Of a DNA stretch of 64,000 bases, positions 2 to 10,327 are shown one piece after another (within the stretch, counting starts at the first letter, position 1; every line of letters starts with the position of its first letter). The DNA comes from Desulfomicrobium macestii (lineage in GTDB: Bacteria > Desulfobacterota > Desulfovibrionia > Desulfovibrionales > Desulfomicrobiaceae). The position numbers and the translations under genes were made by a program. The notes beneath the pieces were generated by a model that did no database searches, was not told the origin of the DNA, and saw only the letters and a list, made by a program, of their open reading frames with translations. Location: the NCBI RefSeq assembly GCF_014873765.1, contig NZ_JADBGG010000013.1, positions 1-64,000 on the forward strand, written 5' to 3'.

Positions 2-808
2 AAACCTAAAGACAAGGCCAAGGTCGAGGTCGCCGTGCAAATCGTGGAGCGCTGGATTCTGGCGAGGTTGCGCAATCGAGTCTTCCTATCCTTGAACGAG
101 GCCAACCGTGCCATCGCCGCCTTGGTGACTGACCTCAACACCCGACCGTTCAAAAAGTTGCCCGGCAACAGGAGAGAGGCTTTCGAAACGCTGGACAAGC
201 CGGCACTCCTGCCGCTGCCGTGCGCCCCTTACGTCTTTGCCGAGTGGAAGCAGGCCACCGTCAACATCGACTACCATGTCGAAGTAGACGGGCATTATTA
301 CTCCGTGCCGTGCAGCCTCATCAAAAAACGTATCGACGTCCGGATCACAGCCACCACCGTTGAATGTTTCCACAAGGGCCAACGTGTGGCTGCTCATCCC
401 CGGTCCATGCAGAAGGGACGGCATACGACCGTCATGGAGCACATGCCCAAAAGTCACCAAGAGTACGCGGGCTGGACCCCGGAGCGCCTCGCACAATGGG
501 CGCTAACGCTCGGCCCTAATGTCTCTGCGTTGACGGAAGCCATCATGGGCTCACGCAAACACCCAGTACAGGGCTACAGATCCTGCCTGGGCGTCATCGG
601 GCTGGCCAAGGAGCACGGTTCCGCACGCCTGGACGCGGCCTGTGAGCGGGCACTGCATCTGGGAGCCCTTTCCCAGAAAAGTCTCAAGTCCATCCTCAAG
701 ACCGGCCTGGACCGTCTGCCGTTGCCGGTCCACAACGCCGACCAGACTCCCATACCCCACGACAACGTGCGTGGTCCGGAATACTACCGCAAGGAGGCCT
801 CATGCTGA
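2..808 (+). CDS. istA: IS21 family transposase IstA, C-terminal part (5' end outside window)
   Basis: The reading frame is open from base 2, upstream of a GTG at 35 that could be mistaken for the start; the extra codons ([12 protein letters not shown]) continue the typical IstA sequence, so this is a window-truncated gene. About 268 residues are visible: the end of the DDE integrase core ([20 protein letters not shown], then [14 protein letters not shown]-like text) and the C-terminal region found in IstA. IstA is the DDE transposase that binds the element ends and catalyses strand transfer. It overlaps istB by 7 nt (802-808), the coupling usual in IS21. No frameshift is seen in the visible part. 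Confidence 0.9.
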
Positions 809-1545
809 GCCATCCAACCTCGCAGACTCTCAATGCCTTGGGCCTTGGCGGCATGGCCAAGGCTCTGGAGGAACAGCGGGCCATGCAGAGCATCGAAGAA
901 CTGTGCTTTGAAGAGCGCCTGGCGCTTCTCATCGACCGCGAAAAACTGCACCGCATGAACCGCCGTCTTACGACCCGGTTAAAGAAAGCAAAACTCAGGC
1001 ACGCAGCCTGCTTCGAGGATATCGACCTTCACTCGCCAAGGGGGCTCGACAAGACCTTGGTCATGAGTCTGGGCTCCTGCTCCTGGGTCGGCAAAGGACA
1101 CAACGTGCTCATCACCGGGGCGACGGGCGTAGGGAAGAGCTTCCTGGCCTGCGCCCTGGCTCACAAGGCCTGTCTGGAAGGCTTCGACGCCTTGTACATG
1201 CGCTTGCCTCGACTCATGGAGGATCTACTGATCGCCAAAGCCGACGGTCGGTACGGAAAGCTCATGCGGTCCTTTGCCAAAACGCCTTTGCTCGTGCTCG
1301 ACGACTGGGGCTTGACCCCGATGACCCCGGCCACATGCAGGGAGCTGCTTGAACTGTTCGAAGACCGCCACGGCAGGCACTCGACCATCGTCACCAGCCA
1401 ACTGCCAGTGGCAGCCTGGCACGAGTACCTCGCTGATGCGACCGTGGCTGACGCTATCCTCGACCGCCTTGTACACAACGCCTACCAGCTCAACCTCAAA
1501 GGAGAATCCATGCGGAAGATGAAATCCATCATTGACCCCAACTGA
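802..1545 (+). CDS. istB: IS21 family helper ATPase IstB
   Basis: This 247-residue AAA+ ATPase of the DnaC/IstB family has a Walker A motif (GATGVGKS, about residues 105-112), a Walker B motif (LLVLDDWG, about 157-164) and the [12 protein letters not shown] region typical of IstB. IstB assists IstA in target selection and transposition. The length is normal for the family (about 245-260). The start ATG lies inside the end of istA, preceded by AAGGAGG, so translation is probably coupled. The gene looks intact, so the element may still be active if its left part is intact. Confidence 0.95.
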
Positions 1546-1592
1546 CCAGTTCCCATAGCGTCCCAAAACCAGCGTCGCTTCGCTCCGATTTC

Positions 1593-1661
1593 CTGGTCAG
1601 TTTCAGCCGGAACAGGTGGGCAGTTTGCAGTGGAATCACTGGTCAGTTTGTCCGGAATGCG
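1593..1661 (+). repeat. Three tandem IS21 end repeats, period 23 bp
   Basis: Imperfect copies start at 1593, 1616 and 1639. Each carries GG-CAGTTT followed about 5 bases later by GGAA. The spacing is exactly 23 bp. IS21 ends carry repeated transposase-binding sites, so these are likely IstA sites at the right end. Confidence 0.7.
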
Positions 1662-1663
1662 CA

Positions 1664-2037
1664 TCGTGGAGGGTGATTATGTTGACACCCTTATCAAGAA
1701 TAGCTGAGAACTGCCTGAAGGCGCGGTAAGCGGATTGCCTGGACAGGCGGTCCAAGCTCTCAACCAGCAGGTATGAACCCGGCTTCACTCTGTCTTGGTC
1801 TACGGCGTCAAGGAATGAGCCCAAAGCCCCGTCCTCTATGTTGCGTCCACGGAAGGCAGATACCCCAAGATCATGGAAAGTAAGTGACTCATCAAGTTCA
1901 AGCCCGTTCTCATCAGCATATCGGCGGCTGGCCTCTGCCTGCCTCCGGAAGCTGTCGCCCTTCATCTGGTCCGGAGTTGAAAAGCGGACGTAGCTGTAAG
2001 CCCTGGCCTTGGGTGTTCCCGTGGTTTGGTTCATCAT
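1664..2037 (-). pseudogene. Serine recombinase (resolvase/integrase) N-terminal fragment, cut by the IS21 element
   Basis: About 124 residues of the serine-recombinase catalytic domain remain. Visible motifs are YSYVRFSTPDQ (nucleophile Ser in the Y-x-R-x-S motif), DSFRRQAE and LVESLDRLSR. The frame runs into the IS end after NIITLHDA, and the remaining residues read from there are IS sequence. The C-terminal DNA-binding part would lie left of the IS, outside the window. The start (2037, or 2034 at the next ATG) follows AAGGAGA on the - strand. The spacing and the DSFRRQ text suggest a large serine recombinase used for island or phage integration, not a small resolvase; this is inference because only the catalytic domain is visible. 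Its start lies only about 70 bp from the comM junction, as expected for an integrase at the edge of its island. Confidence 0.8.
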
Positions 2038-2108
2038 CTTGTGATCTTTCTCCTTCAAAAAAACAGACAGTAAGTAGGCTGTCATCTTGTCAGAAAAAGT
2101 TGGGGTAT

Positions 2109-3005
2109 TCAAGACACAACATGCTTTTCATAGGCCCTCCGGGCAGCGGCAAGACCATGCTCTCAAGCCGCATCCCGACCGTCCTGCCGCCGCTCGGTTT
2201 CGACGAGGCCCTGGAAGTCACCAAGGTCTATTCCGTGGCCGGGAAGCTGCCACCGGATCAGCCGTTGGTGGTGACCCGCCCTTTCAGGTCGCCGCATCAC
2301 ACCATTTCCGACGCGGGGCTTATCGGCGGCGGACAATATCCTCGTCCCGGAGAGCTGTCCCTGGCCCATCGGGGCGTGCTGTTTCTGGACGAACTCCCGG
2401 AGTTCAAGAAGCACGTCCTCGAAGTGCTGCGCCAGCCCCTGGAAGAGGGCCGCGTGACCATCTCACGCGCCGCCGTGTCGCTTGAATACCCCGGCGACGT
2501 CATGCTCGTGGCGGCCATGAACCCTTGCCCGTGCGGCTATCTGGGCGATGAGAAGCACCACTGTTCCTGCACGCCCATACAGATCCAGCGCTACCGTTCC
2601 CGCCTCTCTGGTCCGCTTTTGGATCGCATCGATCTGCACGTCGAGGTCCCGGCCGTTCCATACCGTGACCTGAAGCAGGAACAGGGCAGCATCAGCTCCG
2701 CCGTCATGCAGGAGCGCATCAACGCCGCCCGGCAGGTGCAGCAGGAGCGCTACGCGGGTCTGCATTTCTCCTCGAATTCGGAACTCACGGGCAAATGGCT
2801 GGAGCGGTTTTGCCCTCTGACCGAAAACGAACATGACTTTCTGGAAGGCGCGGTGCAGCGTCTTGGCATGTCGGCGCGGGCCTTTGTGCGCGTGCTGCGC
2901 ATTTCCCGCACCATTGCCGATCTGGCCGGAGACCGGGATCTTTCGATCATACATCTGGCCGAAGCCATCAATTACAGGGGCCTTGATCGCCAGAGCCGGG
3001 AGTGA
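2109..3005 (+). pseudogene. comM: ComM/YifB-type Mg-chelatase-like AAA ATPase, 3' part only
   Basis: Homology to ComM begins at about RHNMLFIGPPGSGKTM (Walker A) and continues to the natural C-terminus: Walker B region GVLFLDELPEF, the MNPCPCGY cysteine motif and LLDRIDLHVEVP. About 297 of the usual ~500 residues are present; the N-terminal LonC-like domain is absent. The DNA upstream reads on the other strand as a serine recombinase. ComM is a helicase-like factor for branch migration in natural transformation. With no N-terminal half the protein is unlikely to work unless an internal ATG (for example 2121) gives a stable fragment. The missing half is expected at the other end of the inserted DNA. 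Confidence 0.8.
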
Positions 3006-7443: not shown

Positions 7444-7902
7444 TCATTTCCGCCACGTGAAGGTGAATCTGCAGCAGGGTCGGCCTTGCATTATGGTTTC
7501 GGAGCGCTGCATGCTCAGGCAAGGGCTATAGCCCTGGGCGAAAGGCTCGTCCCGGGCGCAGGACAGCATGAAACCCAGTTCAGGCTCAAGGCGCATTTGC
7601 TCATAGACGCGGGCGTAGGCGCAGCCCGTGACGACAAAAGCGAGAGTGTCGTCGCTGAGTTTCACATCTTCAATGACAAGAGCGTTGTCCTCCTGCCATC
7701 GTTCGAGAACGGTTGCGAAGTGTTCAAGGTTTGGCCCTTCGGGAGCCTGACGGGCAAATGCCTGTCCTGCGGCCATGGCGTCGGTCTGGATGGCTTCGGC
7801 CAGAATTTTTTCGGCCAGCGAGGGGTCGAGATGCGCTTTCAGGGACGTGAAGATTCGGGCGGCAAGCCCGGCCTGGGCCGTGCGGGTGGCGATCATGCTC
7901 AT
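7444..7902 (-). CDS. L-2-amino-thiazoline-4-carboxylate (ATC) hydrolase-like protein
   Basis: 152 residues. The C-terminal half carries the pattern of the ATC_hydrolase family: GCAYARVYEQ (93-102), ELGFMLSCARDEPFAQGYSP (108-127), RSETIMQG (133-140) and the terminal CCRFTFTW (143-150). Cys94, Cys115 and Cys143/144 are the candidate functional cysteines. The founding enzyme opens the ATC ring on the way to L-cysteine, but most members of the family are uncharacterised, so substrate assignment is tentative. The start at 7902 follows AAAGAGG on the - strand; a second ATG lies two codons in. It is divergent from the CULT-domain gene with only 45 bp between starts, so the two may share a control region. 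Confidence 0.7.
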   Translation of the reverse strand: MSMIATRTAQAGLAARIFTSLKAHLDPSLAEKILAEAIQTDAMAAGQAFARQAPEGPNLEHFATVLERWQEDNALVIEDVKLSDDTLAFVVTGCAYARVYEQMRLEPELGFMLSCARDEPFAQGYSPCLSMQRSETIMQGRPCCRFTFTWRK

Positions 7903-7947: not shown

Positions 7948-8361
7948 ATGCCTGCAATGGATGTTCCCGCGTATTTTCGGGAAAGCGATTTCCCCGCCCA
8001 ATCCCCGGTTTTGGCGGACTTGGATAGCCCCGAGCTGGACGAGTCCGGTCGCGGGGCCCTGCTTTGCCGCACCTGCGGCCAGCCCGTGACCCGGATTCGG
8101 GACCGGATTTCAGTGGGTGGCAAGCATGTGCATGCCTTGTTCAATCCTGCCGGCATCCTCTTCGAAGTCGGCTGCTTCGCCGTTGCGCCGGGATGCCGCT
8201 TTGAAGGTGAGTTCACGCATGATTTCAGCTGGTTCCCGGGTTATGCGTGGCGTTATGCCATGTGCCGTCGGTGCGCCGTCCATCTCGGCTGGGAATATCG
8301 CGGCGCGGGGGACGGGTTTACGGGCCTGATCATGGCCTTCTTGCGCGAGTCCGGTTCATGA
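7948..8361 (+). CDS. CULT-domain protein (cereblon ligand-binding fold), Yippee/CULT zinc fold
   Basis: 137 residues, essentially one CULT domain. Zinc ligands are Cys40 and Cys43 (CRTCG) and Cys106 and Cys109 (CRRCAVHLGW). The family text NPAGILFEVGCF and FSWFPGYAW is clear. The three tryptophans that form the ligand cage are at 95, 101 and 115, spaced 6 and 14, the same spacing as in the structurally studied Magnetospirillum CULT protein (W79, W85, W99). In eukaryotes this fold is the thalidomide-binding part of cereblon; bacterial stand-alone CULT proteins bind uridine-like and imide ligands in vitro but have no known role. No signal peptide, so probably cytoplasmic. The start could also be Met4 at 7957. 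Confidence 0.85.
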   Translation: MPAMDVPAYFRESDFPAQSPVLADLDSPELDESGRGALLCRTCGQPVTRIRDRISVGGKHVHALFNPAGILFEVGCFAVAPGCRFEGEFTHDFSWFPGYAWRYAMCRRCAVHLGWEYRGAGDGFTGLIMAFLRESGS

Positions 8362-8409: not shown

Positions 8410-8499
8410 TCAGCCGTGAATGCCGATTTTGGGGAATACGACCTTGACCAAGACCACCCATATGCCCACCAAGAGCAGCAGGTACAATATGCTTTCCAT
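8410..8499 (-). CDS. Small membrane protein, 29 residues
   Basis: ATG at 8499 on the - strand, preceded by a perfect AAGGAGG (8505-8511) at 5-nt spacing; TGA at 8410. The peptide begins MESILYLLLLVGIWVVLVK and ends in VVFPKIGIHG, giving one transmembrane helix of about 20 residues and a short basic tail. A small hairpin (GAGGTT/AACCTC, 8512-8531) lies just upstream of the ribosome-binding site. Short single-helix proteins with a similar FPKIG/LPRLG ending are, as I recall, common in this order, but I cannot confirm that here. The gene is convergent with the CULT gene and divergent from tatD. Function unknown. Confidence 0.65.
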   Translation of the reverse strand: MESILYLLLLVGIWVVLVKVVFPKIGIHG

Positions 8500-9553: not shown

Positions 9554-10327
9554 ATGATGCGATTCGCCCGGACCATGCAGCTCATTGGCGAGGATGGCCT
9601 GGCCCGCCTGCAGGGGGGGACGGTGGCCGTGTTCGGGCTGGGGGCCGTGGGGTCCTATGTGGTGGAGGCTCTGGCTCGGGCCGGGGTGGGGAGCCTCGTT
9701 CTCTTTGACCACGATACCGTAGGGCTCTCCAACATCAATCGGCAACTCTTCGCCCTGCACTCGACCGTGGGCAGACACAAGGCGGATGTGGCTCGGGAGC
9801 GGGTGCTGGACATCAACCCGGACTGTCGTGTCGAGGCTAGGGTCCAGTTCGTGGACGGCGACAACGTGGCCGGGCTCATGGAGCCGCGCTTCGACGTGGT
9901 GGTGGACGCCATCGACGGCGTCAACTCCAAGGTCAACCTCATCGTGGCGGCGCGCGAGGCGGGCCTGCCCGTTGTGGTCAGCATGGGCGCGGCGGCCAAG
10001 CTGGATCCCTCCAAGATCCTGGCTGCGGATATTTCAAAATCCTTCATGTGCCCCCTGGCCCAGATAATCCGCAAGCGCCTGCGCCGTCGGGGCGTGACCA
10101 CGGGCGTGCGCTGCGTGTTCTCCACCGAGGCTGCGCTGAACAAGAACGCTCCGATTATCGACGAGGGGCTTGAACAGGGCGTCAGCGGCCGTCCGCGTGC
10201 GCCCATCGGGTCCATTTCGTACCTGACGGGCATGTTCGGGCTCTACGTGGCCAGTGAGGTCGTGCGCGTATTGCTTGGCGGATTCGAACCCGGCAAGGAC
10301 GCTGAAAACACGAAGGGGGAAGAATGA
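9554..10327 (+). CDS. tcdA: tRNA threonylcarbamoyladenosine dehydratase TcdA (ThiF/E1-like)
   Basis: 257 residues of the E1-like superfamily. The nucleotide-binding loop FGLGAVGSYVVEALARAGV (about 27-45) and the following DHDTVGLSNINRQLFAL are typical. The SMGAAAKLDPSKI and GVRCVFSTE segments distinguish TcdA/CsdL from ThiF and MoeB. The enzyme activates t6A37 in tRNA with ATP to form cyclic t6A. The start ATG (9554, or the next codon) is preceded by GGAGG. The stop overlaps the next start by 4 nt (ATGA), so the two genes are probably translationally coupled. Confidence 0.9.
   Translation: MMRFARTMQLIGEDGLARLQGGTVAVFGLGAVGSYVVEALARAGVGSLVLFDHDTVGLSNINRQLFALHSTVGRHKADVARERVLDINPDCRVEARVQFVDGDNVAGLMEPRFDVVVDAIDGVNSKVNLIVAAREAGLPVVVSMGAAAKLDPSKILAADISKSFMCPLAQIIRKRLRRRGVTTGVRCVFSTEAALNKNAPIIDEGLEQGVSGRPRAPIGSISYLTGMFGLYVASEVVRVLLGGFEPGKDAENTKGEE

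Follow-up and report, generated by a model that had tools for sequence, protein, structure and literature searches.

Comparison with known CULT proteins

The closest solved structure to the protein analysed here is that of MsCI4 (MGR_0879, 'cereblon isoform 4'), a stand-alone CULT protein from Magnetospirillum gryphiswaldense. Bacterial stand-alone proteins of this kind have been described as consisting entirely of the CULT domain (PMC4287342), and the domain binds uracil-type and glutarimide ligands, with folding reported on binding (PMC4287342, PMC4449219, PMC8900816). The homologous thalidomide-binding domain of human cereblon (CRBN) reads C-terminal cyclic imides that arise by damage (PMC11974815, PMC13001092); human PCMT1 makes such C-terminal imides, which CRBN reads (PMC11974815). 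In the literature found, no natural role is described for cereblon's bacterial relatives and no paper deals with their function in bacteria, in agreement with the initial annotation, which had left ligand and role unassigned. Many protein-degrader drugs use cereblon as their handle.

The CULT gene of the window, the whole 64-kb stretch of DNA analysed, is an open frame encoding 137 residues (Table 1), and no second copy was found in its genome. In a phmmer search against PDB chains, MsCI4 (4v2y) was the top match (E 1.5e-26, residues 34-133 of the window protein), followed by cereblon chains (E 2e-11 to 8e-10). The AlphaFold model has a pLDDT of at least 90 at 98 of the 137 residues and a low-confidence N-terminal arm. 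Compared with solved structures, the model contains the features of the family, namely the beta-tent fold and the inserted hairpin with its conserved tip, N66-G69. Foldseek placed it on 5amh (TM(target) 0.94, rmsd 1.4 Å). Using VIA-align, Z was about 20 for MsCI4, with rmsd 1.3-1.5 Å over 102-104 residues and 41-44% identity in the five best alignments, and about 18 for CRBN; the model also aligned to GLUL-cN-bound CRBN (9nr3; Z 18.5, rmsd 1.8). In contrast to CRBN, the window protein has no LON domain: it is short and has no LON match in Pfam. Bacteria are not known to possess the DDB1-cullin ubiquitin ligase.

The initial annotation had described a stand-alone CULT protein with an intact three-Trp cage at 6/14 spacing and all four zinc cysteines, and had proposed aligning a predicted structure to the cereblon domain. 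All of the features described were borne out. Trp95, Trp101, and Trp115 have the spacing of MsCI4 Trp79, Trp85, and Trp99 (PMC8900816), and Cys40/Cys43 and Cys106/Cys109 form two CxxC zinc motifs at the correct spacing. In the phmmer alignment, the two proteins further agree at the pocket residues N66, P67, A68, F93, and Tyr117, the last corresponding to MsCI4 Tyr101 at the cage base (roles from PMC8900816). Among the pocket residues that could be compared, the one difference is Asp92 in place of MsCI4 Glu76. The proteins also differ in that Cys83 stands where MsCI4 has Leu, and in that the first zinc cysteine lies approximately 15 residues further along, behind an arm that carries a conserved motif. 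Judged from its sequence and predicted model, the window protein is a bacterial CULT protein, of a family already known from bacteria, with a likeness far beyond chance. Since the cage residues agree, the cage should bind whatever MsCI4 binds.

The best Pfam match of the protein was Yippee-Mis18 (PF03226), which shares a related beta-tent zinc fold, at 18.1 bits against a cut-off of 26.6; a match to this family at E up to 0.01 was obtained for 45 of 55 CULT relatives. The Trp cage distinguishes CULT from Yippee/Mis18. No NCBIfam model matched at E up to 0.1. With no Pfam or NCBIfam model above its cut-off, such CULT genes are easily overlooked.

Table 1. Positions of the CULT gene, its sequence features, and neighbouring genes in the window.
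Feature	Position	Strand	Description and basis
ATC_hydrolase family (PF14196)	7444..7902	-	Divergent neighbour, 45 bases from CULT, outside the CULT unit; Pfam
CULT protein, 137 aa	7948..8361	+	Disordered arm (residues 1-36) and CULT domain (37-137); ORF, phmmer, AlphaFold, Foldseek, VIA-align
P-A-Y-F-R (residues 7-11)	7966..7980	+	Hydrophobic-[F/L]-[R/K] motif; AYFR starts 32 residues ahead of Cys40
First zinc CxxC (Cys40, Cys43)	8065..8076	+	Sequence, domain comparison
NPxG hairpin tip (N66 P67 A68 G69)	8143..8154	+	Domain comparison
Cage Trp95	8230..8232	+	MsCI4 Trp79, human Trp380; sequence, PMC8900816
Cage Trp101	8248..8250	+	MsCI4 Trp85, human Trp386; sequence, PMC8900816
Second zinc CxxC (Cys106, Cys109)	8263..8274	+	Sequence, domain comparison
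Cage Trp115	8290..8292	+	MsCI4 Trp99, human Trp400; sequence, PMC8900816
Small ORF, 29 aa, hydrophobic	8410..8499	-	Convergent, between CULT and tatD; strong Shine-Dalgarno (AAGGAGG)
TcdA-like gene	9554-10327		1.2 kb downstream of CULT; scores under the cut-off of the NCBIfam model for TcdA

Conservation, selection, and distribution

None of the 100 bacterial CULT domains compared has lost a cage Trp, a zinc cysteine, N66, or P67, although 80 loci had been fetched from GTDB with the required pattern [EDR][FWH][ST]WFxG[YF]xW, which fixes W95, F96, G98, and W101 by construction. The same residues (three cage Trp, N66, P67, four Cys) are retained in 19/19 held-out Pseudomonadota domains, obtained from a profile search without a fixed motif. 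The GTDB loci are the best 80 of 448 relatives and are mostly of Desulfobacterota type, with some from Nitrospirota, Acidobacteriota, and Spirochaetota. One locus, L125, was excluded from the held-out and 100-domain sets because its first CxxC pair is misplaced, and L111-L118 were excluded because their genomes are already represented in the 80-locus set.

Four further residues, H60, H62, C76, and C83 (window 8125-8199), lie beyond the known zinc site and might form an extra metal or thiol site. All four occur together in 83 of the 100 domains, with C76 in 97 and C83 in 96, a frequency that would suit a redox or second-metal protein in which they constitute a working site. We consider such a role improbable: 12 of the 17 departing domains lose a single residue and retain the other three, and MsCI4 has Leu at the position of C83 in the phmmer alignment yet folds and binds ligands.

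Within the window's genus, CULT was found in 13 of 16 genomes. One of these copies is degenerate (L163, on the single contig of genome G715), being without a stretch that includes the first CxxC and ends just before C83. The dN/dS of CULT was 0.13-0.34 in 10 within-genus comparisons, in all of which dN was lower in the CULT domain than in the arm. These comparisons used 10 of the 12 other genus copies; L162 (frame misread) and L163 were left out, and L156 was represented by L031. By these ratios, the gene is under purifying selection. Across the phylum Desulfobacterota, CULT occurs in 40 of the 395 sampled genomes, one match being weak, and in 21 of 299 genomes of the phylum of G396, here taken as Pseudomonadota.

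Genomic neighbourhood and co-occurrence

The gene had initially been placed in an accessory-looking patch whose genes might point to its pathway. Neither part of this description held up. At about 35-2112, an IS21-type transposase with its IstB partner and a fragment of a resolvase abut comM, and CULT lies 5.8 kb further on; these mobile-element remains may be the source of the accessory look. The comM (Mg chelatase) ORF itself looks truncated and, with the mobile pieces lying against its start, the region 35-3005 resembles an insertion of an element into this gene. CULT itself sits on a backbone that is largely syntenic within the genus. Of the 12 other genus loci, compared within 1.5 kb flanks, 11 have a close TatD (over 80% identity) beside CULT and 9 have the ATC hydrolase there. 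The 29-aa ORF, which has no Pfam or PADLOC match, is likewise matched in 11 of 12 (tblastn, 52-97% identity). Defence or mobile-element cargo, the reading suggested by the element remains, is hardly credible: the backbone is largely syntenic, no PADLOC or PHROGs family matches the CULT protein, and it was found neither in IMG/VR (motif-seeded scan) nor in phage or plasmid collections (tblastn).

Downstream of CULT, the convergent 29-aa ORF is followed by the TatD and TcdA-like genes. With a divergent neighbour upstream and a convergent one downstream, the CULT gene appears monocistronic. The ATC hydrolase is not part of its unit, as genome G705 has an intact CULT gene and no ATC hydrolase match. 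Rfam, at gathering scores, gave no match anywhere in the window.

A survey of the neighbours of CULT genes, also proposed initially, was performed on the best 80 of 448 relatives with flanks reaching at most 10 kb; 46 of the 80 loci exceed 15 kb, and the others end at contig edges. Relatives of the ATC hydrolase, TatD, and TcdA were near CULT in only three of these 80, each of them from the genus of the window DNA, and loci outside it do not show this arrangement. The three loci give the same matches as the genus loci L156, L157, and L159, and are thus probably from the same genomes. A cobA/hemD-like gene, named by eye, is at -1 of CULT in 15 loci among the best 80 of 448, mostly of Desulfobulbaceae type (cobA/hemD-like then CULT in L034, L036, L037, L040, L042, L043, L044, L048, L062, L063, L069, L085, L088, L092, and L109). 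Outside these loci, the neighbours vary. We read the recurring neighbours as lineage synteny and reject the neighbourhood as a pointer to CULT function.

Co-occurrence was evaluated in 39 CULT-positive genomes, G049 (E 8.4e-4) having been excluded, and 39 hand-picked CULT-negative genomes from the same families, a sampling that is unbalanced (one family contributes 13 genomes and another 8). The ATC hydrolase family was present in 21/39 CULT-positive and 13/39 CULT-negative genomes, and we do not find this link convincing. Among the 16 genomes of the genus, 10 have both CULT and the ATC hydrolase, three have CULT only (one of them degenerate), one has the ATC hydrolase only (a 63% complete genome), and two have neither.

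The TcdA-like gene downstream raised a further explanation. The tRNA nucleoside ct6A is a hydantoin, and CULT could be its reader, with the TcdA-like enzyme as its source. We give this explanation almost no credence: the convergent conserved ORF stands between the two genes, TcdA relatives (E ≤ 1e-30) occur in 3/39 CULT-positive and 1/39 CULT-negative genomes, and they are near CULT in just the three congeneric loci among the best 80 of 448. As a general role, the link to a tRNA ct6A synthase is refuted. In the distant genome G305, an ATC_hydrolase gene is directly next to a TcdA relative (contig C249, 7411-8606). The CULT gene of this genome is on another contig, so the pair may be linked independently of CULT.

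Matches to D-hydantoinase-like proteins (E ≤ 1e-60) were equally frequent in the two sets, 4/39 and 4/39, with none above the family cut-off, and no link to hydantoin catabolism was seen. This count bears on whether CULT is a small-molecule sensor or buffer, whose cage would bind uridine, uracil, dihydrouracil, or hydantoin in free form and in which folding brought on by the ligand would alter contacts via the arm. The binding of uracil-type ligands by MsCI4, with folding reported on binding (PMC4287342, PMC4449219), is consistent with such a sensor, as is the conservation of the cage in 100/100 domains. Nevertheless, we regard it as rather unlikely, given the D-hydantoinase counts and given that no recurring pyrimidine gene was recognised beside CULT in neighbour clusters read by eye or searched.

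A strong PCMT-family match (E below 1e-50, read by eye) was present in 38 of the 39 CULT-positive genomes. At the same threshold, also read by eye, PIMT (the protein isoaspartyl methyltransferase) is near universal in the phylum (377/395 genomes), and its presence in CULT-positive genomes therefore discriminates nothing. Overall, co-occurrence with TcdA, the ATC hydrolase, and D-hydantoinase is weak or absent, and no pathway partner emerges from these families or PCMT (39 vs 39 genomes; 395 for PCMT). These negative results on neighbours and co-occurrence spare others an operon hunt.

The N-terminal arm and a candidate function

The model of the window protein contains no second folded domain; the N-terminal arm nonetheless carries a conserved motif. 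Many bacterial CULT proteins have a hydrophobic-[F/L]-[R/K] motif, typically 30-36 residues ahead of the zinc domain. Over the first 40-odd columns of the consensus from an alignment of 55 CULT proteins, only F and R, besides the start Met, reach a majority. Using a regular expression chosen after the pattern had been seen by eye in the same data, Phi-[FLYM]-[RK] was found at -42 to -24 from the first zinc Cys in 54 of 100 proteins, as compared with 16.7 ± 3.5 in 2000 within-segment shuffles (maximum 30), which treat related proteins as independent. The reversed motif occurred in 9/100, and the FR dipeptide in 30 arm segments against 7.5 expected from the shuffles. The strict motif is absent from 46/100 proteins, and the uncertainty of CULT start codons bears on all these counts.

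A position-specific form of the motif, trained on 81 proteins, was also scored on held-out sequences. For the 19 held-out Pseudomonadota, z was 3.1 and 2/1000 shuffles reached the score. The second held-out set consisted of 22 Desulfobacterota, 8 of the 30 first-batch loci having been dropped (L001, which is the locus of the window, and seven others with a 20-mer in common with sequences used for training); here, z was 3.7 and 1/1000 shuffles reached the score. The best-scoring arm site was within the expected -40 to -26 zone in 9/19 and 14/22 proteins, respectively. The simple pattern was weaker in the 19 Pseudomonadota: 8 occurrences vs 3.3 expected, with 13/2000 shuffles reaching 8.

Copies in the genus mostly keep the F-R pair (PAYFRE, PARFRE, PTCFRE, SACFRE, SLLFRD, PACFRS, LCFRS, and FLFRE), departures being LCLRS and ISCRR. 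The arm is unstructured in the models of both the window protein and the ortholog L084, and in neither does it dock onto the CULT domain; in L084, residues 11-20 only rise to a mean pLDDT of 66. No mention of the motif was found in the accessible literature on bacterial CULT proteins, of which few subscription journals were covered. New here, the putative motif is an addition to the known CULT family.

As a tentative proposal, possible rather than probable, the CULT protein may be a stand-alone cyclic-imide reader whose arm docks a housekeeping partner; ligand, partner, and output are our conjecture. Specifically, the cage would hold an imide or uracil ring, as in MsCI4 and cereblon. The natural ligand would be the cyclic imide that a cyclised Asn or Gln forms at the C terminus, whether on damaged proteins or as a PIMT product, for which human PCMT1 and CRBN are the precedent, and the arm of about 36 residues would dock the protein to its partner, most simply an AAA+ protease or chaperone. 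Imide-ended proteins would thereby be removed without ubiquitin. A conserved arm motif together with the lack of a conserved gene partner would fit an adaptor that serves some widely conserved machine. The arm motif may resemble the SspB tail. The analogy to SspB-type tethered ClpXP adaptors, which combine a substrate-reading domain, a flexible leash, and a short docking peptide (PMC3983244), is one of working principle only: they have no homology to the window protein, whose arm is known only as conserved sequence.

The fuller form of this proposal, a ubiquitin-free bacterial counterpart of the cereblon pathway in which CULT would recognise damaged or PIMT-processed proteins by their cyclic-imide C-termini and the arm motif would deliver them to a protease or chaperone, strikes us as doubtful. 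The distribution of CULT, patchy at 40/395 genomes in the phylum, would be odd for general damage control. MsCI4 binds uridine and deoxyuridine (PMC4287342, PMC4449219), which makes a nucleoside ligand possible. The conserved docking-type motif hints that imides might be read without ubiquitin, and it turns the function of bacterial CULT proteins into a concrete two-residue question (F10/R11).

Mimicry of the FtsZ tail by the arm was considered and, although a borderline case, rejected as a family property: across 100 arms, the score with a position matrix of FtsZ tail and linker motifs was reached by 27/500 shuffles (z 1.8), and CULT arms have the aromatic residue where the FtsZ motif has the aliphatic one, and vice versa. 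The arm of the window protein, VPAYFR, is strikingly like VPAYIR in the FtsZ linker of its own genome. FtsZ proteins of this order (L139-L150) have such a second, tail-like linker motif besides their C-terminal IPSFIR-type tail.
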